64,000 nucleotides of DNA from Blastocatellia bacterium (GTDB lineage: Bacteria > Acidobacteriota > Blastocatellia > Chloracidobacteriales > JADJPF01): the NCBI GenBank assembly GCA_025057015.1, contig JANWYG010000017.1, positions 1 through 64,000 of the forward strand, given 5' to 3'. A program made the position numbers and the translations under genes. The notes under the pieces were generated by a model. That model saw nothing but the letters and a program-made list of their open reading frames with translations. It was not told the DNA's origin and ran no database searches. Of the stretch, positions 857 to 54,986 are shown piece by piece (the first letter of the stretch is position 1; each line of letters begins with the position of its first letter).

Positions 857-3292
857 ATGAGCGAACAAATGAAACCCTCTACATCAGACACTATATTGCA
901 ACCCGCCGCTGACAGCGGCAGTAAGCTGCTCAGAGACCTATCAGGGCTCACTATAGACGGAAAGTACTTACTAGAAAAGAGAATAGGCAGAGGAGGTATG
1001 GGAGCAGTCTATGTTGCCAAGCACACAAAATTTCAAAAGAAGCTCGCCATCAAAGTCCTCTCGCCCGACCTCGTCGAAGATGAAAATTCCTATAAACGCT
1101 TCGTAAATGAAGCAAATACTACAGCTAGCCTCAAACACCCTAACATAGTCTCTGTGTCAGACTTCGGACAAACCGAAGAGGGTATAGTCTACTTAGTAAT
1201 GGAGTATGTTGAAGGTGTTTCACTGCGGGACATCATCCATAGGGAAGGAAAACTGACCCTGGAACGAACGCTCGAATTCTGCAGACAACTGTGTGACGCC
1301 ATCTCGCTTGCCCATAAACGCGGTGTGATTCATCGCGATCTCAAGCCCGACAACGTGATGATAGAAGTGATAAATAACCGCGAGATAGTGCGCGTGCTCG
1401 ACTTCGGAATAGCAAAGCTAAAAGATGCAAACCAAAACATGACAAAGACCGGTAATGTTCTAGGCACGCCACACTACATGTCACCTGAACAGTGCAGCGG
1501 CGGAGAACTAGATCACAGATCTGACATCTATGCCCTCGGCGTAATCATATACGAGATGCTCTCAGGCCAGGTGCCGTTCGACGGCCCTACACCAGTAGCA
1601 ATAGTCGTACAACACGTCACTAAAAACCCACCCCTTCTACACGAAGTAAATAAAGCAATACCAGAACCGGTCTCCAGAGTAGTAATGAGGGCACTCGAAA
1701 AGAAGCCCGAAAATAGACAACAAAGTGCCGACGACATAGTTAAGGAGCTAGAAGCTGCAATAGAAATAGCTTCCGATCCAACGCTAGCCTCGGCAAATGC
1801 CGCTAGCTTCGCTACCCCGACAAGCGAAAAAACAGAAGTCAAGTGGAGAGCTATCTTCAAAGGTCCCATCGAAAATACCAAAGAAGGACAGCTTCGAGTC
1901 CTCGAAGGCTTACAAAAAAGACTTAACTTCTCTTATACAAAAGCAAAAGAACTGCTCGATAGTGCCCCGGCACTAGTCAAGCAGTCCAGCTCACAAAAAG
2001 AAGTAGAAGAGCTAGCAGAGAAACTACGTGCCATAGGTGCTGACATCAAGGTAGAACGTGTCGTAGATCCTTTGGAAAAAGAGACGAAGCTAATTCCAGT
2101 ATCAGAGAAAGAAAAAGATACTGTAGCTGTCAAAGCTGAAACTATTCAGGATCCTCTGATAGTTCAAGGTGCTGACATGTACGAAATCCAAAGGGAAATT
2201 CAAGCAAAAGCTACGGCAGTAATGAAGAAAATCCAAAGCGATACTATCCAAACACAACCCGAACCTCCTGTTAAGACAGAGTCTGCACAAGAAACAGTAG
2301 CTATAGCTAAAGAAACCACTGCACTTGATACGTCGCGGCTTTGGTTCGTACAGGCAGGCCTGCAGCTCTACGAAAACTTAGAAGAAGATGAAGTGATCTC
2401 GCGCATACGCAGCGGGATGTTTCGTGCAAATCACCAGGCTAGAAAAGGTAATGGCCCCTGGAGAGAGCTATCTTCTATACCGAAGTTTCGAGAGATCTTC
2501 GAGCAACGCAACCCCCACATGTTCGCCCTACAACAAGAAGAGGCTGAGCAACAGACTTCCGCAATACAAACTTTTTGGGCCAAGATGGCTGCTCTAGTCG
2601 CCAGCATGATGACTCTCACCTTCTTAATCAGCCTAATAATGCAATATTCCCAACGCAAACTGCTAGTAAATGAGCTAGAAGTTATACTTTCAAGTCCTAA
2701 AATGAAGGTGTATGACTTACCTCAGCGTGTAAGAAATGCTCTAAGAAACAGAGACCTCACTGTACCAAACGAAAACATACATATTATCGCTAATCCCATA
2801 GAGAAAACCGTAACCGTTAGGATAGATTACAAACTGGCCGTGATGTTCTTCATTCCGATGAATTATCAAGCAGTAGCCGAGCGTAGCGGAGTAGATATGA
2901 CTCTAGATGACCTTGCCCGTGCCTCAGAAGGTACAATCGAAGTAGTCGGTATCTCCCCCGAAGAAGTTGCTAGATATAAGAAAAAACAACGTGAAATGCA
3001 AGCAGCAGCACGGCTTGCCTCCTACAGAGGAGAGCCAGAAACCGTCAGAGAATACGAAGCTATGCAGCAACTACTCAAAGAGTGTGAAGACGGATTGAGA
3101 GAATTTGACGTCGTCGCTGTAGATGAGGAAGGACGCAAGGTCGAAACCAAAACTGTAAAGATCCGCGATCGAGAGTATACCCGTGAAGAGCTACAGGCCT
3201 ACGTAAGCAACCTACGTACTAAGGTGGAAGATCTTGAACGCATACTCAAAGAGCAGCGCCAAAAGAAAATAGAAGAGGAAGCAAATAAGTAA
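857..3292 (+). CDS. Membrane Ser/Thr kinase with L7/L12-CTD-like and GYF_2-like domains
   Basis: A Hanks-type protein kinase of about 811 residues. The kinase domain (about 36-300) has the glycine loop GRGGMG (44-49), catalytic HRDLKPDN (159-166), DFG (182-184) and the activation segment end TPHYMSPEQ, so it should be active. After it, residues about 345-402 resemble the ribosomal protein L7/L12 C-terminal domain (AKELLDSAPALVK, then EELAEKLRAIGADIKVE). Residues about 495-550 (WFVQAGLQLYENL to PWRELSSIP) resemble a GYF_2 domain. One membrane segment lies at about 576-596, followed by a charged, coiled-coil-rich C-terminus that is probably periplasmic. I prefer ATG 857; the frame extends to a TTG at 836 without a better ribosome site. 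The kinase call is firm; the two accessory-domain calls are from pattern alone. Confidence 0.93.
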   Translation: MSEQMKPSTSDTILQPAADSGSKLLRDLSGLTIDGKYLLEKRIGRGGMGAVYVAKHTKFQKKLAIKVLSPDLVEDENSYKRFVNEANTTASLKHPNIVSVSDFGQTEEGIVYLVMEYVEGVSLRDIIHREGKLTLERTLEFCRQLCDAISLAHKRGVIHRDLKPDNVMIEVINNREIVRVLDFGIAKLKDANQNMTKTGNVLGTPHYMSPEQCSGGELDHRSDIYALGVIIYEMLSGQVPFDGPTPVAIVVQHVTKNPPLLHEVNKAIPEPVSRVVMRALEKKPENRQQSADDIVKELEAAIEIASDPTLASANAASFATPTSEKTEVKWRAIFKGPIENTKEGQLRVLEGLQKRLNFSYTKAKELLDSAPALVKQSSSQKEVEELAEKLRAIGADIKVERVVDPLEKETKLIPVSEKEKDTVAVKAETIQDPLIVQGADMYEIQREIQAKATAVMKKIQSDTIQTQPEPPVKTESAQETVAIAKETTALDTSRLWFVQAGLQLYENLEEDEVISRIRSGMFRANHQARKGNGPWRELSSIPKFREIFEQRNPHMFALQQEEAEQQTSAIQTFWAKMAALVASMMTLTFLISLIMQYSQRKLLVNELEVILSSPKMKVYDLPQRVRNALRNRDLTVPNENIHIIANPIEKTVTVRIDYKLAVMFFIPMNYQAVAERSGVDMTLDDLARASEGTIEVVGISPEEVARYKKKQREMQAAARLASYRGEPETVREYEAMQQLLKECEDGLREFDVVAVDEEGRKVETKTVKIRDREYTREELQAYVSNLRTKVEDLERILKEQRQKKIEEEANK

Positions 3293-38245: not shown

Positions 38246-39058
38246 ATGAAAAAGATAGCAATTCTAGCAATTTTTGCCATTTTCTCACTTGTCGCAGTAG
38301 TATTTATTGCACGCAGTCAGCTTAGGAAAGATCTCCAAAAATTGACTATTAACGTAGAAGGTGTAGAAAGATTTGCCTATATTGTCGAGCCTAAAAGTGA
38401 CGTACCTGCCTCAGGATTACCCTTGGTGCTTGTCTTTCACGGGCACGGTGGAACAGCTCTACATGCGGCAAGGAAGTACCGAATACATGAAGCTTGGCCA
38501 CAAGCAATGGTAGCGTATTTACAAGGCATACCAGGAGTAGCAGGGATAACCGACCCTGAAGGCAAGCAAAACGGATGGCAGAAGAACCCTGGTGAACTCA
38601 ATGACAGAGATCTCAAGTTTGTCGATGCATTCCTAGCTGAAATAAAGCTTCGTGCTAAGATCGATACAAGCAGGATATACGCCTTAGGACACTCTAACGG
38701 CGGACGTTTCGCACACGTATTATGGCACCAACGAGGCAACCAAATAGCAGCTGTAGCGTCCTGCGGTGGGCACGGCGGCACTTTGATATATACTTGTATT
38801 CCAAGATCGATATTTGTTATAGCTGGACAAGAAGATCCACTAGTTCCGTTCCAGGGACAGATGCTGTTTGTGGAAGCCGCAAGACAAGTATTACAGACTG
38901 ATCCTTCAAAAGCTATCAAAAATGGTTATGCAAGCATAGAGCCAGGTGCAAACGGGCTTGAACTCGGTACTTACCTGCACCCAGGTGGCCACGAGTGGCC
39001 GAAGGCAGCTACACCCTTCGTAATCGAGTTTTTCAAACGACATAGCATCAAGCAGTAG
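38246..39058 (+). CDS. Secreted alpha/beta hydrolase, LpqC/PHB-depolymerase-like esterase
   Basis: A 270-residue hydrolase with an N-terminal membrane anchor or signal (MKKIAILAIFAIFSLVAVVF). The fold shows the oxyanion region LVLVFHGHGG, the nucleophile elbow ALGHSNGG, an acid-bearing AGQEDPLVPF and a C-terminal GGHEWP histidine, a full Ser-Asp-His triad. Relatives include feruloyl esterases and polyhydroxybutyrate depolymerases; the substrate is unknown. AAGGAG precedes the start. A 141-nt piece of this gene, about 90% identical, recurs at 48578-48718 inside the island downstream. Confidence 0.88.
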   Translation: MKKIAILAIFAIFSLVAVVFIARSQLRKDLQKLTINVEGVERFAYIVEPKSDVPASGLPLVLVFHGHGGTALHAARKYRIHEAWPQAMVAYLQGIPGVAGITDPEGKQNGWQKNPGELNDRDLKFVDAFLAEIKLRAKIDTSRIYALGHSNGGRFAHVLWHQRGNQIAAVASCGGHGGTLIYTCIPRSIFVIAGQEDPLVPFQGQMLFVEAARQVLQTDPSKAIKNGYASIEPGANGLELGTYLHPGGHEWPKAATPFVIEFFKRHSIKQ

Positions 39059-39122: not shown

Positions 39123-39320
39123 GTGGCTGAGATTCACGTAGCAGAAGGCGAGAGTATAGAAAGTGCTCTACGTCGCTTCAAGCGCAAGGTGCAACAAGAA
39201 GACATCATTAAAGACATTAAGAAACACACCTTTTATCTCAAGCCCGGAGAGAAACGGCGCATCAAATCAGCACTTGCCAGAAAACGAAACCGCAAGAAAC
39301 AGCGCCGGGAAATGGAATGA
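39123..39320 (+). CDS. rpsU: 30S ribosomal protein bS21
   Basis: A 65-residue basic protein of the small ribosomal subunit that sits near the 3' end of 16S rRNA and aids initiation. AEGESIESALRRFKRKVQQ and the basic tail RIKSALARKRNRKKQRR are diagnostic. It starts at GTG 39123. It is the last host gene before the restriction-modification island, and the left island edge falls in the 81 nt after it. Confidence 0.93.
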   Translation: MAEIHVAEGESIESALRRFKRKVQQEDIIKDIKKHTFYLKPGEKRRIKSALARKRNRKKQRREME

Positions 39321-39326
39321 ACTTCT

Positions 39327-39401: not shown

Positions 39402-41027
39402 ATGTCAAAACAAAAGAGCAAGGTACAGCCGAGCTGGCTACCACTCTTCGGCTACGAAGCCGAGCTTTGGCGCATGGCCGACGCGTTGCGCGGCTCGATG
39501 GATGCAGCTGAATACAAGCACGTCGTGCTCGGCCTTATCTTCCTTAAATACATTGCTGATGCCTTCGAGGAATACCATGCCCAGCTTGAAGCTGAACGAG
39601 TTGAAGGTGCTGATCCCGAAGATCCCGACGAGTATCGCGGGAAAAACATCTTCTGGGTGCCGTCGGAGGCTCGCTGGCAGCGCCTGCGCCAGAATGCTCG
39701 ACAGCCCACCATCGGCCAGATCGTGGACGAAGCCATGGAAGCCGTCGAACAAGACAATCCCGCGCTTAAGGGAGTGCTTCCGAAGGACTACGCCCGACCA
39801 GCGCTCGACAAACAACGCCTCGGCCAGCTCGTTGACCTGATAAGCAACATCACGGTTGGGAACGAGTCTGCCCGCGATAAAGACGTGCTCGGGCGTGTGT
39901 ATGAGTACTTCCTTTCGCAATTCGCCAGCGCCGAAGGACGTAAGGGTGGCGAGTTTTATACGCCGCGCTGCGTAGTCAAGCTTCTGGTCGAAATGCTAGA
40001 GCCCTACCGCGGCCGCGTCTATGACCCATGCTGCGGTTCGGGTGGAATGTTCGTTCAATCAGTAGAGTTTATCCTTGCTCATGCCACTGGGAACGGCAAC
40101 GGCGGTAAAGCGAAAGCCGATATCTCCATCTATGGCCAGGAATCGAACTATAACACCTGGCGCTTGGCGAAAATGAACCTTGCCATTCGCGGCATCGACG
40201 CCCAGATCGCCCACGGTGACACCTTCCACAACGATAAATTTCCAGACCTCAAAGCCGATTTCATCCTCGCTAATCCGCCATTCAACATGAAGGCATGGGG
40301 AGGCGAGCGCCTGCGCAACGATAAACGCTGGAAGTACGGCGTGCCGCCCGCCGGCAACGCCAACTTCGGCTGGGTGCAGCACATCATCCACCACCTGTCG
40401 CCAGTAGGCGTGGCAGGCTTTGTGCTGGCCAACGGCTCCATGTCTTCCAACCAGTCAGGCGAAGGCGAAATCCGCAAAAACATCATCGAGGCAGACCTGA
40501 TAGATTGCATGATTGCTCTGCCGGGGCAACTGTTCTATTCGACCCAGATCCCAGTCTGTTTATGGTTTCTGGCTCGCGATAAAAGCGGTCGCCCTCCTTC
40601 CGGACACAAGCACCCGTTGCGCGACCGGCGCGGGGAGGTGCTTTTCATCGATGCCCGCAAGATGGGTTGCATGGTAGACCGTACCCACCGAGAACTCACC
40701 GACGAAGAGATTGCCCGCATCGCCAACACCTACCACGCCTGGCGTACCTTCGGCCCTCACCCCGACCCTCTCCCAAGGGGAGAGGGCGTCCTGCTTTACC
40801 GCGACATACCCGGCTTCTGCAAGAGCGCCACGCTGGAAGAGATCCGCAAGCACGGCCACGTGCTCACGCCAGGCCGCTACGTCGGCGCAGAGACCAAAGA
40901 CGATGATGACGAACTCTTCGAAGAGAAGATGCAGCGCCTCGTCGCCGAACTGCGCAAGCAGCAGGCCGACGCAGCCCGGCTGGATGCTGCGATCGAGAAA
41001 AACCTGAAAGAGCTGGGCTTCTTATGA
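39402..41027 (+). CDS. hsdM: Type I restriction-modification DNA methyltransferase (M subunit)
   Basis: A 541-residue N6-adenine methyltransferase subunit. The N-terminal HsdM helical domain ([20 protein letters not shown]) is followed by the SAM-binding motif [10 protein letters not shown] (about 207-216) and the catalytic ANPPFN (about 289-294); both are intact. Together with an S subunit it would methylate adenines in a bipartite target. At about 451-462 a short peptide [11 protein letters not shown] interrupts the conserved region before [14 protein letters not shown]. It is encoded by a palindromic repeat inserted in frame. The gene starts 81 nt after rpsU. Confidence 0.95.
40754..40788 (+). 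repeat. Palindromic repeat element inserted in frame in hsdM
   Basis: A CCCTCACCCCGA arm precedes a CCCTCTCCC-AA-GGGGAGAGGG palindrome. It is translated as [11 protein letters not shown] and keeps the hsdM frame. It belongs to the same type as the repeats flanking the DUF559 insert at 49586 and 49988. Confidence 0.75.
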
Positions 41028-41159: not shown

Positions 41160-43226
41160 ATGAAACTGATTGGCTTTCGAGTTCAGAACTACAAAAAAAT
41201 CGCTGACACAGATTGGATTACTGTTCGCAATTTGACTGCTTTCGTTGGCAAGAACGAGGCAGGAAAGTCTGCACTTTTTCGCGGGCTCTCAAAACTGAAC
41301 CCATCAGATGGTGAAAAGTATGATGGGCTTAAGGAATTTCCCAGACGGCGGTATACCAATGAGTTCAAAAGGCAGGATTGGCCAGTCGCAAGCGGCAAAT
41401 TTGAACTTGAACCCAGTGAGTGAGAGGAACTCAGTAAGATATGCTCTGAGCTTTCCGACACCAAGCATGTGATCTGCACCCGACACTACTCACGGAAATT
41501 GGACATCGAATTTGAGCCGACGCCCTCTATCTCGCCGCTAACTTGGTCGGAATTCACTACCACTCTGGAACGCCTGGGAAAAGATATAGGCGATCTCACT
41601 GCCCCTGAAGGCAAGGGGGATGTTCTGGGCGCTACAAAGACGACTCTTCTGAAAACTCTTACCCAACTAAAGAATAGTAAATCAGCAAGCAATCCTACAG
41701 AGGTAGTATCCAAAGCAGAAGTTCAATCGCTCATCAACGCTATAGCCTCACAAGCTAACGAAGAATGGCAGCGGCAAACCCTGCAATCTATCAAGGAAGA
41801 GGCAGAGGAAATGTTGAAGCGAGCCTCTTTTCAGGAAAACCTCAACCGTGCCAAGAAATGGATCGAAGAGAATCTCCCCAAGTTCATCTACTTTGATCGC
41901 TACGATGTGATTGACAGTGCTGTTCACCTTCCGAGCTTTGTTCACCAACTCAACCAACAGCCAGTGCCGCCTCGGGTTCGCACAACCCGTTGCCTTTTCG
42001 AATACGTTGGACTCGATATCCAGCACTTAGCGTCACTTGGGCGTCATCATTCAAGCACAGCTTCAAACGAGACGATCCGGCGATATGTTGATGAGCGCGC
42101 CATTTATCTCTCCTCGGCCTCTAGCGCTATGACCAGAAAATTTCAGGATTGGTGGGAGCAACGCCGGCATAAGTTTCATTACCAGGTAGACGGCGACTTC
42201 TTCCGTATCTGGGTTTCGGACGATCTTGACGATAGCGAGATAGAGCTGGACCAACGCAGCTTAGGCATGCAGTACTTCTTTTCCTTTTTTACCGTGTTCC
42301 TTGCTGAGGCGAAAGATGCGCATCAAAAAGCGATTTTACTGTTGGATGAACCCGGCTTGCACATGCACGGGACAGCCCAGGCGAAGGTGGTCAAATTTCT
42401 CGAGAAGCTTGCTCAAGATAATCAGACGATGTACACGACACACTCGCCGTTTATGATTGATGCAGATCATCTGGAGCGGATACGGGTTGTATACGAGGAT
42501 AAAGACGGGACCACCAAAGTTTCCGAAGATGTTTGGCCACGTGACAAGGATGCGCTTTTTCCTCTGCAAGCGGCTCTCGGTTACCAACTTGTCCAATCAC
42601 TGTTTATTGCCAAACGGCAGCTCATAGTGGAAGGGCCGACGGACTATTCGATACTCAAAGCTTTCAACCAAGCCATTCGGCAACGAGGAGAAACTTCTCT
42701 GCGTGATGATGTGATCATCGTTCCGTCAGGAGGTTTAAGCAAATTACTCCCACTTGCGAGCATGCTAATCGGTCATACCGTTGAGGTAGTTGCACTCCTG
42801 GACGGAGACGAACCTGGGCGCAAAGAAGGAAATAAACTAACCCGGAAATTGCTTGCAGGCGAAGCGGGACGTTGCCTTTTCATCGGCGACTTCTTGGAGG
42901 GCAAACCAGAGGCAGAACTTGAAGACATATTCCCGGAAGAGGTGTACCTGGAAGCCGTAAGGGAAGCCTATTCATTACAGGATTTGGGTTTCGGTGAAGA
43001 AGAGAACGCCAAAGAAGGGGTCGTGAACAAGGTCAAGACCTTGTTTGAGCGCAGGAGCCTTGGTCAGTTCGAGAAGTGGCTTCCCGCTGCTGTCTTGCGG
43101 GACTGGATTACCTCAAAACCTGAGAAATTCCCAGATGCGGTATGGCAAACTGTTACGCAGATATTTGAAGCAGTGAATAAAGCGTTTAACGCTAACATCT
43201 CAAAGGAGCTCGGCTATGGGGAGTGA
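41160..43226 (+). pseudogene. OLD-family ATPase/TOPRIM nuclease with an in-frame stop
   Basis: Two pieces in one frame, separated only by TGA at 41421-41423 (codon 88 of 688). The N-terminal piece has the ATPase loop FVGKNEAGKSALF. After the stop, residues continue without break (EELSKICSEL onward), with Walker B ILLLDEPGLHMHG (about 393) and a C-terminal TOPRIM nuclease (LIVEGPTDYSIL and ALLDGDEPGRK). OLD proteins are ATP-dependent nucleases that often act in defence. A single CGA-to-TGA change would explain the break. An internal restart at 41469 could make the C-terminal part. The end overlaps hsdS by 11 nt. Confidence 0.85.
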
Positions 43227-44531
43227 GTGGGGAGAAATGCCTTTCAGTGAGGCCGTACTAATAAATCCACCCGTGCAGTTAGAGCCTGGCTATAGTTATC
43301 CATTCGTGAATATGTCGGCATTATCGCCCGAGTTACGACACGTTCGGGCGACAGAAGTACGAGAATTTACAGGCAGCGGCTCGCGTTTTCAACATGGAGA
43401 TACCCTAATGGCGCGTATCACACCTTGTTTAGAGAATGGCAAGATTTGTCGCTACTACGCTTCGCCGAAACTAGTACTGGTCATGGCTCAACAGAGTTTA
43501 TTGTCGTTAGAGGGCGACCAGGTGTCACAGATACTGACTTCGCTTACTACCTTACAAAGTCCGATGACGTGCGTAAATACGCGATTAGCCAGATGACAGG
43601 CACTTCTGGTCGCCAGAGGGTGCCGACTGACTCCCTGAGTCATTTGAACGTCTTAATTCCTTCCCTCCCTGAGCAGCGCGCCACTGCGCACATCCTCGGC
43701 ACGCGGGATGACAAGATCGAGCTGAACCGTCGCATGAGCCAGACGTTGGAGGCGATGGCGCGGGCGCTACTCAAGGCGTGGTTTGTGGATTTCGAGCCGG
43801 TCCGCGCCAAGATAGAAGGCCACTGGCGCCGCGGTGAGTCCCTGCCCGGCATGCCCGCCGAGCTCTACGACCTCTTCCCCGACCGCCTTGTCTCCTCCGA
43901 ACTGGGCGAGATACCGGAGGGGTGGAGAGTGGTAGCCCTACCCGAACTCATCGAGATTAATCCACCTCGCACGCTTCGCAAAAGCGACTTTGCACCCTAT
44001 TTAGACATCGCCAACATGCCTACGCAAGGCCACGCGCCAGAAGCTGTAATCGAGCGGCCTTTTGGTTCGGGAATGCGCTTGATTAATGGGGACACCCTTC
44101 TTGCACGAATCACACCATGCCTTGAAAATGGCAAAACGGCGTACGTGGACTTTCTGCAAGAGGGACAGGTCGGCTGGGGATCAACAGAATACATTATTTT
44201 GAGACCGAAGCCGCCTTTACCACCAGAATTTGCTTATTGCCTTGCGCGCGACACAGAATTTCGGGAATTTGCTATTCAGAGCATGACCGGAACGAGTGGC
44301 CGGCAACGAGTACAACCAGATTCACTTTCTCATTTCAAGCTACCATGTGCTCCTCAACCTGTAGCGAAAGCATTTGGACGCGCAATTGACGGGTTATTCG
44401 CTCGCTCATCGGCAGCGATACGCGAATCCCGCACCCTTGCTGCGCTGCGCAATGCGCTGCTGCCCAAACTGATTCGCGGCGAAATTCGCGTGAAGGATGC
44501 GGAGCGGTTTTTGAAGGAGCGAGGGCTATGA
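43216..44531 (+). pseudogene. hsdS: Type I specificity subunit hsdS, first copy, one frameshift
   Basis: An S subunit with two target-recognition domains (TRDs). TRD1 starts MGSEWGEMPFSEAVLINPP and runs to GKICRYYASPK; the frame then slips by one between about 43470 and 43490 and resumes in STGHGSTEFIVVRG. From there it is open through the central conserved region (DDKIELNRRMSQTLEAMARA), TRD2 (GWRVVALPELIEINPPRTL) and the tail LPKLIRGEIRVKDAERFLKE. One lost base (or two gained) is enough. TRD2 is nearly the same as that of the second hsdS at 48962, while TRD1 is unrelated to it. The tail overlaps the next gene by ATGA. Confidence 0.88.
44460..44531 (+). repeat. hsdS tail repeat, copy A (end of first hsdS)
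   Basis: The last 72 nt of hsdS, encoding LPKLIRGEIRVKDAERFLK plus ERGL and a stop. The TGA overlaps the ATG of the GIY-YIG gene as ATGA. Confidence 0.9.
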
Positions 44532-45379
44532 GCAATAGCAAAGGCTTTTCTGTCCGTATTTTCATTCCTTCAGGAGAACCGGAGGGGCTGCGCATTATTG
44601 AAAAGTCCAACTGGACTGGGCAGGGACTTATTTTCCCTCGCGTGTTACTACCGGACGTCAAACGACGAGAGGAAATCAAGCGCACCGGCGTTTATATTCT
44701 TTGGGGACCGAGCGAGTCGAGCCAACTACCCAGAGTCTATATCGGTCAAGGCGATGATGTGCTTCAACGAATAGAACAGCATGCGCGGCAGAAGGATTTT
44801 TGGACGCATGCAGCAGTCTTCACAAGCAAGGACCTTAACCTCAACAGGGCACACGTTCAATACATCGAGGCAAGGTTGGTGGTTCTGGCGTCTGAAGCCA
44901 AGCGAGCAGAGCTCGACAATAGCAATTCACCTCAGGAGCCGTCCCTATCAGAGGCGGACCGGGCCGACGCAGAAGCGTTTCTTCAGGATATGCTCCTCTG
45001 CTTGCCCTTGGTGGGAGCTAACTTCTTCGAGAAAGCCAAGCCGGGCCCAAAGAGCAAAAAGGATTTGTTTATTAGAGGCAAAGGCATCGAAGCCCGTGGC
45101 GTTGATGGCATAGAAGGGTTTACAGTACGTGCCGGATCACAGGCAGTCAAAGATGCATCCCCTTCTACTCATGCCTACCTGCGCGAAATGAGAGCTACCT
45201 TGATTCAGCAAGGTGTTCTCGTTGATAAAGGCAGATTTTATGAGTTTGCGCAAGATTATGTTTTCAGTTCTCCCTCTATGGCGGCTGGTGTCGTGCTTGG
45301 CCGCAATGCAAATGGTCGTATCGAATGGAAAGATACAAGAGGGCGCACACTGAAGGAAATCCAGGAGGAAGCAAAATGA
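44528..45379 (+). CDS. GIY-YIG nuclease family protein with DUF4357
   Basis: A 283-residue protein. The GIY-YIG endonuclease domain (about 50-125) shows GVYILWG, RVYIGQGDDVLQRIEQH with the catalytic Arg and His spacing, and the Glu in YIEARLV. The C-terminal half (about 195-283) is a DUF4357 domain (FTVRAGSQAVKDAS, then VFSSPSMAAGVVLGRNANG and EWKDTRGRTLKEI). This architecture is frequently found beside type I R-M genes and is presumed to be an accessory defence nuclease; its target is unknown. The ATG overlaps the hsdS stop (ATGA), so it is translationally coupled. It is the first cassette of the array and appears intact. Confidence 0.87.
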   Translation: MSNSKGFSVRIFIPSGEPEGLRIIEKSNWTGQGLIFPRVLLPDVKRREEIKRTGVYILWGPSESSQLPRVYIGQGDDVLQRIEQHARQKDFWTHAAVFTSKDLNLNRAHVQYIEARLVVLASEAKRAELDNSNSPQEPSLSEADRADAEAFLQDMLLCLPLVGANFFEKAKPGPKSKKDLFIRGKGIEARGVDGIEGFTVRAGSQAVKDASPSTHAYLREMRATLIQQGVLVDKGRFYEFAQDYVFSSPSMAAGVVLGRNANGRIEWKDTRGRTLKEIQEEAK

Positions 45380-45427
45380 GGGCTGGTGCTATCAAACTTG
45401 TCTGCCTCCCCGCTTTACTCAAACATG

Positions 45428-45499
45428 CTGCCCAAACTGATTCGTGGTGAAATTCGCGTGAAGGATGCGGAGAGGTTTTTGGAGGAGAGGAGGTCATGA
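45428..45499 (+). repeat. hsdS tail repeat, copy B
   Basis: 72 nt colinear with copy A and encoding LPKLIRGEIRVKDAERFLE plus ERRS and a stop. An ATG directly in front (45425) makes it a 24-codon ORF. The TGA overlaps the ATG of the DUF3800 gene. The rest of hsdS is absent. Confidence 0.9.
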
Positions 45500-46392
45500 C
45501 ACACCCTAAGGTCACCCACGTTGGCTTTGCTGACGAGTCGAACTGGAATAAAGGACGGTTCCGGAGTATTGGCCTAGTTACCGCGCCTCTCGAATACATC
45601 ACACCTTTAAACGATAAGCTAAAAGAACTTCTGAGGAGTTCAAATCTAAAAGAGTTTAAGTGGGCGAATCTGGATAGAACTAGAACTAAGGAATGCTGCG
45701 CAGCGCAAAAACTCTGTCGCTTTGCTATTGAGAAAGCTCTGCAGCAACTCCTCAGAGTAGATATATTGATCTGGGACATTGAGGACAGTCGTCATAAACT
45801 GATAGGTCGAGACAACATAGCCAATCTGCAGCGAATGTATTATCACCTTTTTCGAAATGTCTTGAGGCTGCGCTGGCCTGACTATGCGGTTTGGAGACTT
45901 CATCCTGATGAGCATACAGCTTTGAATTGGAAAACGGTTCAGGACTACTTAGAACTTGTTAGCACAAGGGTGGAGCCCGACCCCTCCCTCTTCCCTGATG
46001 ACATATCCCAAATGCGTTTGCTCACAGAGTTCTCTGTTAAGGAAATCCTATCTGTCGTTTCAAGCGAACATCCACTGCTTCAACTTGCCGATCTATTTGC
46101 TGGATTGGCAGTTTTCTCATGGGAAAAGTCCAGTGAGTATAAACGATGGCTATCGAGTAGCTCAAAGCAAATTCTTTTACTCAACGAACAAACAGAGCCT
46201 ATGGAGCTATCTCAGCGTACGGAGGCGCGTTTCAGAGTCTTGAGGCAGTTCGACGAATTGTGCAAGCAGCGAAAACTTAGCGTGAGTTTGCAAAGTAGTA
46301 AAGGGCTTCGCACATTCAACCCAGAAAAACCAATCAATTTTTGGATGTACGAGCCTCAACATCCTGAGGATAAGGCACCAGTTCGCAAGTAG
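45496..46392 (+). CDS. DUF3800 protein (RNase H-fold, defence-associated)
   Basis: A 298-residue DUF3800 protein. Its N-terminal HVGFADESNWNKGRFRSIG is the family D-E-S signature. EFKWANLDRTRTK and VDILIWDIEDSRH follow the family pattern, and a conserved C-terminal acidic site occurs in LLQLADLFAGL. DUF3800 members have a predicted RNase H-like nuclease fold and occur often in mobile and defence loci; no activity can be assigned here. The start overlaps the stop of tail copy B (ATGA) with GGAGGAGAGGAGG just upstream, so it should be well translated. It appears intact. Confidence 0.87.
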   Translation: MTHPKVTHVGFADESNWNKGRFRSIGLVTAPLEYITPLNDKLKELLRSSNLKEFKWANLDRTRTKECCAAQKLCRFAIEKALQQLLRVDILIWDIEDSRHKLIGRDNIANLQRMYYHLFRNVLRLRWPDYAVWRLHPDEHTALNWKTVQDYLELVSTRVEPDPSLFPDDISQMRLLTEFSVKEILSVVSSEHPLLQLADLFAGLAVFSWEKSSEYKRWLSSSSKQILLLNEQTEPMELSQRTEARFRVLRQFDELCKQRKLSVSLQSSKGLRTFNPEKPINFWMYEPQHPEDKAPVRK

Positions 46393-46522
46393 ATCTATGG
46401 CCAATCACCTGAGTGAATCATCTGCAAACCAGACGCCCTAACCGGAATTCTTAACCTTGGGGAGGTGCTCTTGTCCCAGAATTACACCTGTCCAGTCCCT
46501 TGCCGCGCTGCGTGACGCGCTG

Positions 46523-46594
46523 CTGCCGAGGCTGATTTGTGACGAAATTCGCGTGAAGGATGCGGAGCAGTTTTCGAAGGAGTACGACCTATGA
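46523..46594 (+). repeat. hsdS tail repeat, copy C
   Basis: 72 nt encoding LPRLICDEIRVKDAEQFSK plus EYDL and a stop, colinear with copy A. hsdS homology continues about 25 nt further upstream (SLAALRDAL). The TGA overlaps the ATG of the DUF3644 gene. Confidence 0.9.
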
Positions 46595-47667: not shown

Positions 47668-47794
47668 ACGCGTTCCTCAGATCCACCAGAGCACGAACTG
47701 TTTTCATTTGTGCGGAATCGCTCGGTTGGTCGGTAACATACAGTCCCGAAATTAAACTCGCTCAGTCCCTCGCCACCTTGTGCGCAATGCGCTA

Positions 47795-47866
47795 CTGCCG
47801 AAGCTGATTCGTGGTGAAATTCGCGTGAAGGATGCGGAGTCATTTCTGCAAGAGAGGGGACTATGA
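47795..47866 (+). repeat. hsdS tail repeat, copy D
   Basis: 72 nt encoding LPKLIRGEIRVKDAESFLQ plus ERGL and a stop, colinear with the other copies. Degenerate hsdS homology (SLATL) extends upstream to about 47764 with a 2-nt shift. The TGA overlaps the ATG of the RAYT relic. Confidence 0.9.
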
Positions 47867-48577
47867 GCTATGACCCTGTGCCAAACACCACCGCCGCAGC
47901 ATTCGCCTGAGGGGATACTACTGCGCAGCCGTGGAGTATTTCGTCACCATCCGCACGCACGACCGCGTGTTTGTTTGGCGAGGCGGTGGATGGCAAAATG
48001 CGGTTAAGTGCAATGGGACAGATTGTTCAACAATTCTAGTCGGAAATACACCATCATTTTCTGCACGCCGAATCAGATGAATTCGTGTTGATGCCCAATC
48101 ACATTCACGGCATCTTGGTTATCACTGATACCAACAGCACGGCATGCCCCCAAAACCCCCAACATCACGCTCTATGCCGCCGCAAAGCCAATTGGTCACA
48201 ACACAACCGAATATCACTTCAACATCCCCCATCACCACAACAAATGCCAACGTCGTCATAAATCCCAACATCACGTATGTCACAATAAAACCAACTGCCG
48301 CTGCTGCAAATCAAACTTCACGACAAAATCTCGCCATTACGTTATGGATCGAACTATTCGAGAAACTGGTTGCAGGCTCCATCCCACTACATTCGTCCAT
48401 TCAAGCCTACTACAACGCAACGCATTAACGCTTTGCGTGATACCTATAGCTTGACTTGTCTGACAACGTAACTACTATGAACACATCATCTGCGACGAAC
48501 AATTGCGTGGCTATGTCCGTCGAGATATCCGCAACGATCTGCTGCGATGGATGTTTGATTGCGCAAATCCAAACGCT
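47863..48577 (+). pseudogene. Relic of a RAYT (REP-associated tyrosine) transposase
   Basis: Nucleotide similarity to the intact gene at 50713-51429 runs over the whole length, but stops and frameshifts abound. Recognisable pieces are HHRRSIRLRGY at the 5' end, VLMPNHIHGILVITDTN with the HUH histidines, and NYYEHII plus RWMFDCANPNA near the end. The central part is replaced by low-complexity Thr/Asn/Pro-coding sequence, and a CACGGCATGCCCCC remnant (48138-48151) matches the palindrome within the intact copy. It ends abruptly at the junction with the duplicated hydrolase fragment. Confidence 0.82.
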
Positions 48578-48718
48578 ACTTTGATATATACTTGTATTCC
48601 ACGATCGATATTTGTTATAGCTGGACAAGAAGATTTTTAGTTCCGTTCCAGGAACAAGTGATGTTTGTGGAAACCGCAAGACAAGTATTACAGACCGACC
48701 CTTCAAAAGCCATCAAAA
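48578..48718 (+). pseudogene. Duplicated 141-nt fragment of the upstream esterase gene
   Basis: This stretch matches 38780-38920 of the alpha/beta hydrolase gene at roughly 90% identity (both begin CTTTGATATATACTTGTATT and end near CTTCAAAAGC[C/T]ATCAAAA). It has at least one single-base deletion. It corresponds to the region coding for the acid residue of the hydrolase. It has no start or stop of its own. Confidence 0.9.
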
Positions 48719-48754
48719 GCTGAGTAAGACAGGGTAGTACAAGTATTCTAGGTC

Positions 48755-48971
48755 CCATACTTGTTCGACCTTCTCGGCGCGGCAGATTCCCGCCAGGAGC
48801 GCGAACTGAAGCAAGCCCTCATAGATCACACTCGGCGCTTTCTTCTGAGGAGCGGGGCGCAGGCTTTGCTTTTGTCGGGCGGCAGGTCTTGCTCGAAGTT
48901 GGCTATTGCGATTTCTATGTGAATTTGCTCTTTTACTACCTCGAAACCGGCGAGTTAGGCGATGGCAAGTG
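48755..48971 (+). pseudogene. Relic of a DUF1016/YhcG PD-(D/E)XK nuclease
   Basis: Frame one gives PYLFDLLGAADSRQERELKQ and ALIDHTRRFLL, then a one-base slip near 48852 leads to GAGFAFVGRQVLLEVGYCDF and YVNLLFYYLETG. These match the DUF1016 C-terminal nuclease domain up to the LLFYHL motif; the catalytic continuation (usually VVIELK) is missing. The end overlaps the second hsdS start. DUF1016 genes between hsdM and hsdS are common in type I loci, so this is probably the leftover of a second locus. Confidence 0.75.
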
Positions 48972-50716
48972 AGTGGATAACACGCAAGATTGGTTCTATT
49001 GGTCGTGTGGTGACGGGTAAGACACCACCTACTTCTGATCCTTCCAACTTTGGTGGAGACTATTTGTTCATTACCATTCCAGATCTCAATGGCCGGGTTT
49101 TTATTGATAGCAGCGAACGAACACTGTCAGAAAAAGGTGCCGAAACCTTGAGATCCTGTTTACTACCGCCTGGCTCAGTAATGATGTCCTGTATTGCTAC
49201 AGTAGGGAAATGTGGTATTACAACACAACCCAGCTTCACGAATCAGCAAATCAACAGCGTCATCCCGGAAGATGGTACTGACCCACGATTTCTGTACTAT
49301 GTTTTCACGCAGCTCGGTCACGAGCTGGAGTCCGCCGGTGGTGGCGGCTCTGTTTACACCAACGTCTCTAAGAGACGATTTTCTGAAATCGAAATCACAA
49401 TACCAACGGACGTTAATGAGCAACGCGCCATTGCCCATATTCTCGGCACGCTGGACGACAAGATCGAGCTGAACCGCTGCATGAGCCAGACGCTCGAGGC
49501 AATGGCGCGGGCGCTCTTTAAGTCGTGGTTCATTGATTTTGACCCCGTCAAAAGGAACCTGGCAAGAAAGGGGGATCAACATCAACCCTCACCTCAGGCC
49601 CTTCTCCAAGAGGGGAGAAGCTCGTACCGTGGCGGATATCATTTTGCCAGGCTTGTTGAAACTGCACGGGCATTGCACAAAAAACAAACACCGGCAGAGG
49701 AAATCTTCTGGGAATTAGTTCGCAATCGGCGGTTTCTTAGACTGAAGTTTTGGCGACAACACCAGATCGGCAATCACATCGCCTACTTCTATTGTCACGA
49801 CCATCGCTTGTTGATCGAGTTGGACGGGAGCATACATTCCACCAAGCAAGAAAAAGACACCAAGCGCGATGCTTGGATGAAGGCAAAGGGCTTCAAGGTT
49901 CTTCGTTTCAAAAACGAACAACTGCTGGACGATCCCGAATCGGTTCTGACTGCGATTGCCCAGGTGGTCGAAGGATCGGACAAGATTCTCCCTTCTCCCA
50001 GAGGGAGAAGGGTTGGGGATGAGGGTGTAGTCGAAGGCAATGCCTTCGACCACTTGTTCCCCGACCGCCTGGTTTCCTCCGAGCTGGGTGAAATTCCCGA
50101 GGGGTGGGAGGTGGTGGCACTACCAGAACTTATCGACATCAACCCACCTCGTACACTTCGCAAAAGCAAGCTCGCGCCGTATTTGGAAATGGCCAACCTA
50201 CCTACGCAAGGTCACGCACCGGAAACCGTAATTGAACGACCTTTTTTTGGCTCAGGAATGCGTTTCATTAACGGCGACACCCTTGTCGCACGAATTACAC
50301 CCTGCCTCGAGAAGGGCAAAATCGCGTATGTGGATTTCTTACAAGACGGACAAGTAGGCTGGGGTTCAACAGAATATATTGTTTTGAGACCGAAGCCGCC
50401 TCTGCCAGCTGAATTTGCGTACTGCCTTGCACGCAGCACGGAATTTCGGGAATTTGCTATTCAGAGCATGACTGGAACGACCGGTCGGCAACGTGTGCAG
50501 CCAGATGCGCTTTCTCATTTCAAGCTACCACGCATTCCGGAACCCGTAGCGGAGGCATTTGGACGGATAGCCAATGGGCTATTCATTCGCTCATCTGCTG
50601 TCATTCGAGAATCCCGCACACTTGCCGCCCTGCGCAACGCGTTGCTACCGAAGCTGATTCGTGGCGAAATTCGCGTGAAGGATGCGGAGAGGTTTTTGAA
50701 GGAGAGGGGATTATGA
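48962..50716 (+). CDS. hsdS: Type I specificity subunit hsdS, second copy, with inserted DUF559 domain
   Basis: An open S subunit of 584 residues, well above the usual 400-450. TRD1 (about 1-150: EWITRKIGSIGRVVTGKTPP to FSEIEITIPTDVNEQRAIAH) differs from the first hsdS. The central conserved region (DDKIELNRCMSQTLEAMARA) follows, then at about 200-360 a Vsr-like DUF559 endonuclease domain bordered by repeat-coded peptides. TRD2 (about 372-540, GWEVVALPELIDINPPRTL) and the tail repeat close the protein; TRD2 is almost the same as in the first copy. With hsdM it could still direct methylation, if the insert in the inter-TRD linker is tolerated. The ATG overlaps a DUF1016 relic. Confidence 0.88.
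   Translation: MASEWITRKIGSIGRVVTGKTPPTSDPSNFGGDYLFITIPDLNGRVFIDSSERTLSEKGAETLRSCLLPPGSVMMSCIATVGKCGITTQPSFTNQQINSVIPEDGTDPRFLYYVFTQLGHELESAGGGGSVYTNVSKRRFSEIEITIPTDVNEQRAIAHILGTLDDKIELNRCMSQTLEAMARALFKSWFIDFDPVKRNLARKGDQHQPSPQALLQEGRSSYRGGYHFARLVETARALHKKQTPAEEIFWELVRNRRFLRLKFWRQHQIGNHIAYFYCHDHRLLIELDGSIHSTKQEKDTKRDAWMKAKGFKVLRFKNEQLLDDPESVLTAIAQVVEGSDKILPSPRGRRVGDEGVVEGNAFDHLFPDRLVSSELGEIPEGWEVVALPELIDINPPRTLRKSKLAPYLEMANLPTQGHAPETVIERPFFGSGMRFINGDTLVARITPCLEKGKIAYVDFLQDGQVGWGSTEYIVLRPKPPLPAEFAYCLARSTEFREFAIQSMTGTTGRQRVQPDALSHFKLPRIPEPVAEAFGRIANGLFIRSSAVIRESRTLAALRNALLPKLIRGEIRVKDAERFLKERGL
49586..49620 (+). repeat. Left palindromic repeat of the DUF559 insert
   Basis: A CCCTCACCTCAGG arm, then CTTCTCC and GGAGAAG facing each other. 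The order is arm then palindrome, as in the hsdM copy. Confidence 0.75.
49988..50026 (-). repeat. Right palindromic repeat of the DUF559 insert, inverted
   Basis: CCCTTCTCCC and GGGAGAAGGG face each other, followed by TTGGGGATGAGGG, the reverse complement of the arm in the left copy. The two repeats are therefore in opposite orientation. Confidence 0.78.
50645..50716 (+). repeat. hsdS tail repeat, copy E (end of second hsdS)
   Basis: 72 nt whose translation is identical to copy A over all 23 residues. The TGA overlaps the ATG of the intact RAYT transposase gene. Confidence 0.9.
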
Positions 50717-51429
50717 CCTACGACCCAGACAAACACCACCGCCGCAGCATCCGCCTGAAAGGATACGATTATGCGCAGCCGGGGGCGTATTTCATCACCA
50801 TCGTCACGCAGGATCGGGAATGTTTGTTTGGCGATGTGGTGGATGGAAAAATGCGGTTGAACGCAATGGGGCAGATTGTTCAACAATGCTGGCAGGACAT
50901 ACCCTGTCATTTCCCGCATGCCGAATTGGATGCATTTGTGGTGATGCCCAACCATATTCACGGCATCGTCGTCATCACCGATACCAATGTAGGGGCCTGG
51001 CATGTAGGGACACGGCATGCCGTGCCCCTACACCATGCGACGCCCATACCACCACCCCCGATGCCACCACAAGATCCGATACCATTGTCAAACCCAACGC
51101 CGCCACATGATGCCGTGCTGCCACGAAATATTCCCACGTCGCCAAACGTCAACACACCACGAACCGAACAATTCGGCAAACCAGTTGCCAGCACCATTCC
51201 CACCATCATTCGTTCATTCAAATCTGCCGTAACGCAACGCATTAACGCCCTGTGTAGCAACCCTGGCGCGCCCGTCTGGCAACGGAACTACTACGAACAC
51301 ATCATCCGCGATGAACAATCGCTTAGCCACATACGCCAATACATCCGCGACAATCCGCTGCGGTGGATGTTTGATCGCGTAAATCCAAACGCTACCACCT
51401 ACGACGTCGAAAACACATGGCACATCTGA
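50713..51429 (+). CDS. RAYT transposase (IS200/Y1-type, HUH)
   Basis: A 238-residue REP-associated tyrosine transposase. The N-terminus KHHRRSIRLKGYDYAQPGAY plus FITIVTQ is the family start, VVMPNHIHGIVVI carries the HUH histidines and NYYEHIIRDEQSLSHIRQYI the nucleophilic tyrosine. Relatives nick single-stranded palindromic REP sequences. Residues about 95-150 are a Pro-rich insert, part of which is encoded by a 28-bp palindrome (51004-51031). The start overlaps the hsdS stop (ATGA), and the end overlaps the hsdR start by 13 nt, so the gene sits exactly between hsdS and hsdR. Confidence 0.88.
   Translation: MTYDPDKHHRRSIRLKGYDYAQPGAYFITIVTQDRECLFGDVVDGKMRLNAMGQIVQQCWQDIPCHFPHAELDAFVVMPNHIHGIVVITDTNVGAWHVGTRHAVPLHHATPIPPPPMPPQDPIPLSNPTPPHDAVLPRNIPTSPNVNTPRTEQFGKPVASTIPTIIRSFKSAVTQRINALCSNPGAPVWQRNYYEHIIRDEQSLSHIRQYIRDNPLRWMFDRVNPNATTYDVENTWHI
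51004..51031. repeat. REP-like palindrome inside the RAYT gene
   Basis: GTAGGGA, CACGGCATGCCGTG, CCCCTAC: a 28-bp palindrome with a single mismatched pair. A partial copy (GTAGGGGCC) begins at 50989. It is translated in frame, and the RAYT relic holds a remnant of it at the matching place. Confidence 0.75.
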
Positions 51430-54400
51430 CTGAACCTGACGTTGAACAAGCCACCTTAGCTTGGCTGGAAGCCCTCGGCTAGTGCATTGCTCGAGGTGCA
51501 GACATTGGGTCGGACATATCTGTGGCTGAGCGGTGCGACTACGGTGAAATGGTGCTGACACAGCGCCTGCGCGACGGGCTTATGCGACTGAATCCCGACT
51601 TGCCTGCCGAGGTACTGGGCGATGCTTACCGTAAACTCACACGCCCCGAAGGCGCCGACCTGTTCCAGCGCAACCATGCCATGCACCGCATGTTGGTTGA
51701 TGGTGTAACAGTTGAATATCGTGCTGCTCAAGGCGACAACCGCGGTGCCCAGGTGCGCGTTCTTGACTTTGACGACCCTGAGAACAACGACTGGCTGGCG
51801 GTCAACCGGTTTGCCGTCGTTGAAAACAGGCGTAGCCGCCGCCCTGATGTCGTGCTGTTTATTCAACGGCCTGCCGGTAGCAGTCATTGAACTGAAAAAC
51901 CCCGCCGATGAAAATGCCACACTCTGGACGGCATTCCAGCAACTTCAAACCTATCATCAGGCGGAGATCCCTTCGCTGTTCGCAACAAATGAGGTGCTGG
52001 TTATTTCCGACGGCGTCGAGGCGCAGGTCGGTCCCCGGGAGCAGGGTGGGAGTGGTTCAAACCCTGGCGCACCATCAGCGGCGAAATGCCCGCGCCGGAG
52101 ACGATGCCCCAGTTGCAGGTGGTGCTCGAAGGCTTGTTTGATAAACGACACTTTCTCGATCTGTTGTGTGACTTCATCATCTTCGAGGATGACGGCAGCA
52201 GACGGCTTGCCAAGAAGATGGCGGGTTACCACCAGTTTCACGCCGTGCAGGTGGCGGTGAGCGAGACACTCCGTGCGGCAAAACTGGCGCGTACAGGCGA
52301 GGCTGCCGAACCGCCAGGCCGCTACGAAGCAGGGCGCAAACCGGGTGGCAAACGGGGGGACCGACGCATCGGCGTCGTCTGGCACACCCAAGGCTCGGGC
52401 AAGAGCCTGACGATGGCTTTCTACCGCCGGCTGCATCATCCGCGAGCCGGCAATGGAGAACCCGACTGTTGTTGTCCTCACCGACAGAAACGACCTGGAC
52501 GATCAGCTCTTCGGCACCTTTTCGCGCTGTCAGGGCCTCTTGCGCCAACCGCCCGTGCAAGCCGAAAGCCGTGCGCATCTGCACCAGCTTCTCTCCGTGC
52601 AAGCGGGCGGTGTCGTTTTCACCACCATCCAGAAATTCTTCCCCGAGGAAAAAGGCGATCGCCACCCGACGCTCTCCGAGCGGCGCAACCTCGTGGTGAT
52701 TGCCGATGAAGCGCACCGCAGCCAATACGACTTCATTGATGGCTTCGCCCGCATGTGCGATGCATACCCCACGCCTCGTTCATCGGTTTTACCAGCACGC
52801 CGATTGAACTTGCCGACGCGAACACCCGCGCAGTTTTCGGCGACTACATCTCCATCTACGACATCCAGCGCGCAGTGGAAGACGGTGCAACGGTCCCGAT
52901 CTACTACGAAAGCAGGTTGGCAAAACTCGATTTGCCGGAGGAACTCAAGCCGAAGGTGGACGAAGAATTCGAGGAGGTCACCGAGGAGGAAGAAGTCGAG
53001 CGGAAAGAACGGCTCAAGACCAAGTGGGCGCAGCTTGAGGCATTTGTCGGCACAGAAAAACGCTTGCGGCTCGTCGCTCAGGACATCGTTGACCACTTTG
53101 AGAAACGACTGGAGGCGATGGATGGCAAGGCAATGATCGTCTGCATGAGCCGTCGGATCTGCGTGGCCCTCTACCGCGAGATCGTGAAACTCAAGCCTTC
53201 GTGGCACGATGGGGACGACACCCGTGGAGCAATCAAGGTCGTGATGACCGGCTCGGCGTCCGATCCGCTCGACTGGCAGCAGCACGTCAGAGACAAGGCG
53301 CGGCGCGAGCTGCTTGCCAACCGCTTTTGCGATCCGAACGATCAGCTCCGGATTGTGCTGGTGCGTGATATGTGGCTCACGGGATTTGATTGTCCGAGCT
53401 TGCACACGATGTACATAGACAAGCCGATGCGTGCGCATGGACTGACGCAGGCCGTAGCGCGTGTTAATCGCGTATTTCGTGACAAAGCTGGTGGCCTAGT
53501 AGTGGATTACCTTGGACTGGCGCATGAACTCAAGGCTGCGCTCGCAGCCTACACCGAGAGCGGAGGCACTGGCCGTACAGCACTCAGTCAGAACGAGGCT
53601 GTTACGGTTATGCTCAAGAAGTAGAGGTGTGCTGCGATCTCTTCCATGGATTCGATCGTTCGCAGTGGATAGAAGGCACAGCTAAGCAGCGGCTCATTCT
53701 GTTGCCTGCTGCACAAGAGCACATTTTGGCTCAGGAGAACGGCAAAGATCGCTACATTCGTGCAGTGCGGGAACTGTCGCAGGCGTTTGCGCTTGCCGTG
53801 CCGCATATGAAGAGGCACTGCGCATTCGCAACGACTTAGGCTTCTTTCAAGCCGTTCAAGCTGTTCTCACAAGAGCGTGTCGGGAGAAGCTCGTCCGGAA
53901 GCAGAGCTAGATCATGCAGTCCGACAAATTATCTCCCGTGCCGTGCTCTCTGAGGGTGTGCTGGATATCTTTGCCGCAGCCGGACTGAAGAAACCTGATA
54001 TTTCGATTCTTTCCGATGAATTCCTAACAGAAGTACGAGGCATGCCACAAAAGAATCTTGCCGTCGAGTTGTTGCAGAAGTTGCTCAAAGGTGAAATCAA
54101 AGCTCGGCGCCATAAGAACATTGTACAGGCTCGTTCTTTCGCTGAGCTATTGGAGCAGACGATTCGCAGGTATCAGACCCGTGCTATCGAGGCAACACAA
54201 GTGATCGAGGAACTGATTGCGCTTGCAAAGGACATCCGAGAGGCTAACGCCCGCGGAGAGAAGCCCGGGCTTACTGAAGAAGTGCTTGCCTTCTATGATG
54301 CGCTAGAGACAAACGAAAGTGCTGTGAAAGTGCTAGGCGACGAGACACTGCGGACGATCCGCCCGCGAATTAGTCGCCACCGTCCGCAAGAACGTCACCA

Positions 54401-54558
54401 TTGACTGGATGCTGCGCGAAAATGTCCGCGCTCAACTGCGGGTGCTGGTCAAGCGCATTCTCCGCAAATACGGCTCCCCGACCGACAAGCAGGAGAAGGC
54501 CACACAGACAGTGCTCGAGCAAGCCGAGGCACTGTCTGTGCAGTGGACAGCAATATGA
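51417..54558 (+). pseudogene. hsdR: Type I restriction endonuclease R subunit, heavily decayed
   Basis: The remains of an hsdR of about 1040 codons. It opens with MAHLTEPDVEQATLAWLEALG and meets TAG at 51480, then resumes in the same frame. Homology hops between frames near 51870, 52045, 52425, 52770, 53620, 53810, 53870 and 54360. Recognisable parts are the nuclease motif RPDVVLF then [13 protein letters not shown], Walker [11 protein letters not shown], the DEAH box [21 protein letters not shown], the helicase end [18 protein letters not shown] and a C-terminal helical part ending [15 protein letters not shown]. No functional restriction translocase can be made. Confidence 0.93.
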
Positions 54559-54579
54559 CAGTTTGCTAAAGTTTTAGTT

Positions 54580-54986
54580 ATGGAAAGATTGAAGACACGT
54601 CTTCCTACAGCAAAAGAAATTCATGAACTGGTGGCATTTCTCCCACAGTTATAAAGGACGGCTTGTCACCCATCCTACGATGGGGCGGAGACTCACAGGG
54701 GAAGGATGGCACCAAGACTCTTCCATGGCCTGAATACGAACCGATTGTCCTGATATTTTTTCAAGTGGCTTCTCGTGAATGCTGGATTGATTATAACTAC
54801 CATCCCGAAAAAGCTCGGCAGATGATTGAAGATGCTGGGCAAGTTAAGGCAGCAGACATAATGCAAATCAAAACCATGCTAACCTACTGTGTCCGAGGAG
54901 AGCGATTTTGTGACGGGCATTGGGGCCGGATGATACAGGAAGGATACGTTCGCCGTCTGTTGGAACGGCTAATGGAGTTAATCTAA
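54580..54986 (+). pseudogene. DUF6508-like gene with one frameshift
   Basis: ATG 54580 begins MERLKTRLPTAKEIHELVAF and hits TAA at about 54652. The protein continues in another frame as DGLSPILRWGGDSQG through ASRECWIDYNYHPEKARQMI to RGERFCDGHWGRMIQEGYVR. The combined length would be about 134 residues. I associate the C-terminal part with DUF6508, a small domain of unknown function; that assignment is from memory of the pattern. It is the last gene of the island, with 26 nt to the next gene. Confidence 0.6.

Follow-up and report, generated by a model that had tools for sequence, protein, structure and literature searches.

Short heterologous DNA segments are reported to be captured through double illegitimate recombination in Acinetobacter baylyi (Harms et al., 2016, cited in PMC8116780). 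In homology-facilitated illegitimate recombination (HFIR), one end of the incoming DNA pairs by homology while the other joins at a few shared bases, and partial target duplications carrying a foreign allele are possible; in transformable bacteria the process is RecA-dependent and uses segments of 3-10 bp (PMC6382021). In the RptR island, DarTG2 is embedded between hsdS and hsdR, a site called a potential recombination hotspot (PMC12255303). Here, we describe a 141-nt piece of an esterase gene inside a type I restriction-modification (R-M) island, found in a 64,000-nt stretch of DNA (the window) from a host that, by its relatives, is a member of the Acidobacteriota close to Blastocatellia records. 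This scrap is probably a genuine, ordinary but informative scar of illegitimate recombination in a decaying defence island. Like the Acinetobacter captures, it is a short piece with two near-homology-free joints; unlike them, it measures 141 nt, comes from the flank of the same locus and has a diverged allele as its source. Compared with HFIR, it is known from its outcome alone and the overlap is merely 2 nt; such a 2-nt joint is seen at its left edge, and the homologous anchor would be expected in hsdR or the right flank. As in the RptR island, different genes lie between hsdS and hsdR, but the window stacks several accessory genes, each behind its own hsdS tail, in an island that is decaying.

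All three genes of a type I R-M locus, hsdM, hsdS and hsdR, were found (Table 1), with hsdS and RAYT (REP-associated tyrosine transposase-like) genes each duplicated between the left and right parts of the island. Restriction has probably been lost, since hsdR is broken; with hsdM and hsdS2 open and hsdR in several frames, the locus is possibly a methylation-only remnant. The hsdS2 product is an unusual S subunit in which an endonuclease-like DUF559 domain (residues 231-336) separates the two halves, and the intact RAYT copy scores 72 bits against NCBIfam REP_Tyr_transpos (cut-off 80). The immediate left neighbour of the island is the resident esterase gene, whose stop codon lies 343 nt upstream of hsdM; a small ORF between the two (about 39123-39321) reads, by eye, as ribosomal protein S21. 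The esterase gene encodes an alpha/beta hydrolase of PHB-depolymerase/feruloyl-esterase-like type (NCBIfam matches under cut-off to PHB-depolymerase-type esterases; PDB relatives are feruloyl esterases).

Table 1. Coordinates of the island, its esterase neighbour and RAYT-like genes at R-M loci (window positions unless another contig or locus is given).
Feature	Coordinates	Strand	Remarks
Intact resident esterase-like gene	38246..39058	+	270 aa; source homolog of the scrap at 38780-38921
hsdM, type I DNA methyltransferase, left unit	39402..41027	+	Pfam HsdM_N + N6_Mtase; PADLOC MTase_I
OLD-like AAA/TOPRIM gene	41160..43226	+	two ORFs (41160-41423, 41469-43226)
hsdS1, left unit	43425..44531	+	without 5' part; 87% aa identity to hsdS2 residues 364-584
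DUF4357 gene	44528..45379	+	PADLOC candidate PDC-S14; ATGA overlap with hsdS1
Stray hsdS tail, copy 2	45426..45500	+	leads into DUF3800 gene 45496-46392
Stray hsdS tail, copy 3	46499..46582	+	leads into DUF3644 relic (PDC-S19) from 46591
Stray hsdS tail, copy 4, with RAYT relic	47781..48579	+	tail 47781-47866; 3'-truncated RAYT relic up to scrap
Scrap	48578..48718	+	esterase codons 179-225; frameshifting indel patch near 48634-48638
DUF1016/YhcG nuclease gene, 3' part	48719..48961	+	from about codon 197 of 377; frameshifted relic
hsdS2, right unit	48962..50716	+	DUF559 domain mid-gene
RAYT2	50713..51429	+	REP-associated tyrosine transposase-like; ATGA overlap with hsdS2
hsdR, right unit	51417..54640	+	broken frames (pseudogene)
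RAYT-like genes at R-M loci	window 50713-51429, 47863-48579; G000:C5 4894-5476; L072 (G016) 2466-3203; G006:C2 237598-238131		

Self-BLAST of the window aligned the scrap with the resident gene, in the same orientation, at 90.8% identity over 142 columns with one gap (E 3.7e-48, 189 bits). This bears out an earlier sequence-only reading, which had claimed a 141-nt match of about 90%, lying between a RAYT relic and a DUF1016 relic (here found to its left and, as DUF1016/YhcG, to its right); far from dropping to chance on full alignment, as that reading had allowed, the identity holds. Chance similarity was ruled out by a control in which 20 triplet-shuffled islands were matched against the flanks, the top match reaching 36 bits versus 189 for the real pair. 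A paralogue within the same genome was likewise rejected as the source, a third copy being absent from genome G000 (3.33 Mb, 23 contigs), and a search of the island for other pieces of the window's host flanks returned none besides the scrap, which has no function of its own.

Both edges of the scrap are sharp. On the left, the RAYT relic gives way to the esterase at codon 179, and the two share no more than 2 nt: the sequence is AATCCAAACGCTAC-CACC in intact RAYT, AATCCAAACGCTAC-TTTG in the relic and GGCGGCAC-TTTG in the esterase, the common part being 'AC'. On the right, the esterase stops at ...GCCATCAAAA (codon 225) and DUF1016 homology starts from the very next base, 48719, which aligns to about codon 197 of a 377-aa DUF1016/YhcG protein of G016, a genome of another family in the same class. 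The joints carry 0-2 nt of homology and cut both partner genes mid-frame, and no filler, target duplication or shared flank was seen at them. Esterase identity extends past neither edge, which speaks against the recent tandem rearrangement with shared flanks that had been named as a possible refutation of a foreign origin. The frame of the RAYT relic reads on into the scrap up to a TAG (48545-48637), a chance chimeric frame.

We consider it about 55% probable that the scrap is a recombination scar, left when a relative's esterase-plus-R-M segment was joined to the island and the joint was cut short by a deletion. In the donor, a close relative, the same locus would have held the esterase gene and, behind it, an R-M unit of the relative's own. 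Between the RAYT gene of the present strain and esterase codon 179 of the relative, a crossover almost free of homology (at 'AC') would have produced a head-to-tail pair of island units with the foreign esterase 3' part in between, and a deletion, later or simultaneous, would have run from esterase codon 225 to the DUF1016 gene of the incoming unit so that 141 nt remain. No simpler history makes use of the linkage; its route may have been, for example, HFIR during uptake of the relative's DNA, HFIR being a known way to such joints (PMC6382021). Against this history stands its need for two events, not one. Its main rival is a one-step capture, in which a break in a two-unit island was repaired by rejoining RAYT to the DUF1016 relic through double illegitimate recombination, taking in a 141-nt esterase piece, foreign or local, as filler. 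Such an event would yield both junctions at once and would leave ends that abut exactly, with no other sequence on either side, and short heterologous segments are reportedly captured in A. baylyi (Harms et al., 2016, as above). A random piece would, however, rarely be the island-flanking gene, since the 1-kb zones at the island edges amount to about 2 kb of the 3.3 Mb, and a foreign piece would by chance have to be the relative's same locus; we regard this capture as unlikely.

The substitutions in the scrap resemble those of a gene under purifying selection. Six changes relative to the resident gene are silent (codons 187, 199, 205, 218, 219 and 223) and four are replacements (codons 204, 206, 207 and 211), with one short indel patch at codon 198, which counts as a single decay event. 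All four replacements fall at columns that are variable among 11 orthologs, and conserved residues are unchanged apart from the indel patch. Nei-Gojobori estimates are dS 0.22, dN 0.039 and omega 0.18 (bootstrap 95% 0.03-0.81; P(omega>=1) 0.0135), for a small sample of only 10 informative changes in 46 codons. In simulations whose selection strength is our own assumption, pure neutral decay produced the pattern with a probability of 0.002-0.003; the value was 0.02-0.025 when the resident gene took a quarter of the changes, and about 0.8 when selection acted on all of them. With the indel codon as an 11th change, these became 0.01-0.016, 0.08-0.09 and about 0.96, respectively. Because the differences are mostly silent and conserved residues are kept, the scrap's divergence probably built up while the gene was still functional in a related strain. 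The pattern is moderate evidence that the scrap is a related strain's allele and not a decayed local copy, although either allele could be the native one.

A local tandem duplication in the present strain, with subsequent decay of the surplus esterase copy, would explain the shared orientation, the use of the nearest flank gene and the one decay event in the scrap. It would leave the selection signature unaccounted for, and the dS between hsdS1 and hsdS2 (0.94) far exceeds that of the esterase pair (0.22), so both pairs are unlikely to stem from a single local duplication; we judge this explanation improbable. Omega, the placement of replacements at variable columns and the greater divergence of the hsdS pair all favour the foreign allele that the sequence-only reading had preferred over a fresh local copy.

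A single R-M unit, hsdM-Fic-DUF1016-hsdS-RAYT-hsdR with a shortened hsdR, is present in G016 (contig C52, locus L072). From 48719 to hsdR, the window is collinear with the 3' part of this unit, with 87% nucleotide identity over 50609-51454 (hsdS tail and RAYT2) and 80-93% in parts of hsdR, and the scrap therefore lies exactly at the boundary of two units: by this comparison, what lies to its right corresponds to the 3' part of one unit and what lies to its left to a second. Linkage and the G016 unit order argue for the earlier proposal that a relative with an R-M unit beside its esterase gene contributed part of the island, and the presence of foreign DNA from this locus's own flank suggests that mobile elements were not the only route: at least one part of the island would have come in when the chromosome recombined with that of a close relative. 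The companion proposal, that an R-M unit inserted in or beside the donor's esterase gene and that the scrap is an untouched insertion edge, is not supported, and we rate it highly improbable. It would fit the linkage and the foreign allele pattern, but it calls for an intact unit end beside an interrupted gene, and here the right neighbour DUF1016 is itself present only from about codon 197 and RAYT is 3'-cut; as DUF1016 is cut mid-gene, the right joint is a deletion-type junction, and with the RAYT side also starting mid-gene neither joint is an insertion edge. An assembly chimera, two strains misjoined in a metagenome-derived contig, is just as hard to credit: the 23-contig genome does fit a draft or metagenome assembly in which strain mixtures can be misjoined, but misjoins by short-read assemblers need a shared stretch and both joints have only 0-2 nt.

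Relatives of the esterase were sought in 162 genomes of the class and in the GTDB R220 contig collection, and none closer than 62% amino acid identity was found. The contig search with the esterase sequence alone returned no relative, and that with an esterase alignment kept 80 loci, the closest at 61-62%. In a search for interrupted esterases, these 61-62% identical proteins were the nearest orthologs, and the island was absent beside them; their neighbourhoods shared with the window only the esterase, generic kinases, sialidase-type repeats and transposases. A truncated esterase in G029 (from codon 175) was rejected as an interrupted gene, as it merely meets a contig end. IMG/VR was scanned for a 29-nt stretch that the two copies share exactly, with 0 matches, and neither a donor genome, a second genome of the genus nor a strain with the uncollapsed joint was found in the 162 class genomes and GTDB R220 contigs.

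More interesting than the scrap, which is ordinary in kind, are the stacked hsdS tails. The window holds five copies of the final 75-108 nt of hsdS, at the ends of hsdS1 (44424-44531) and hsdS2 (50609-50717) and in the stray copies of Table 1, three tails without an hsdS body; each of the five leads into a different accessory gene start. The tail carries a purine-rich, ribosome-binding-like stretch just upstream of the next start. A comparable pair of hsdS tails is present in genome G076 (contig C33; L059 7147-7234), where about 115 nt of an hsdR 5' relic is fused near CCTGCGCGA to an hsdS tail (L059 7147-7400), and behind it come a second gene for an OLD-like ATPase and a further hsdR; this is an independent tandem joint in another family, analogous to that of the window. 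The scrap, the stacked tails and the G076 case together suggest a testable route by which accessory defence genes gather between hsdS and hsdR. As a tentative and still doubtful generalization, type I R-M loci of this class may grow at one chromosomal site by repeated end-to-end fusion of related strains' alleles, each fusion adding an accessory defence gene behind its own hsdS tail, and the scrap would mark a fusion that took in a flanking host gene.

In several type I R-M loci a RAYT-like gene follows hsdS directly and precedes hsdR (Table 1), and RAYT may be a fixed R-M accessory gene at such loci. A literature search on RAYT inside R-M loci found nothing relevant. Of 30 RAYT loci fetched, only two, those of the window and of G016, have an hsdS tail nearby, and by place RAYT stands beside hsdS additionally in G006 and in a second locus of the window's genome.
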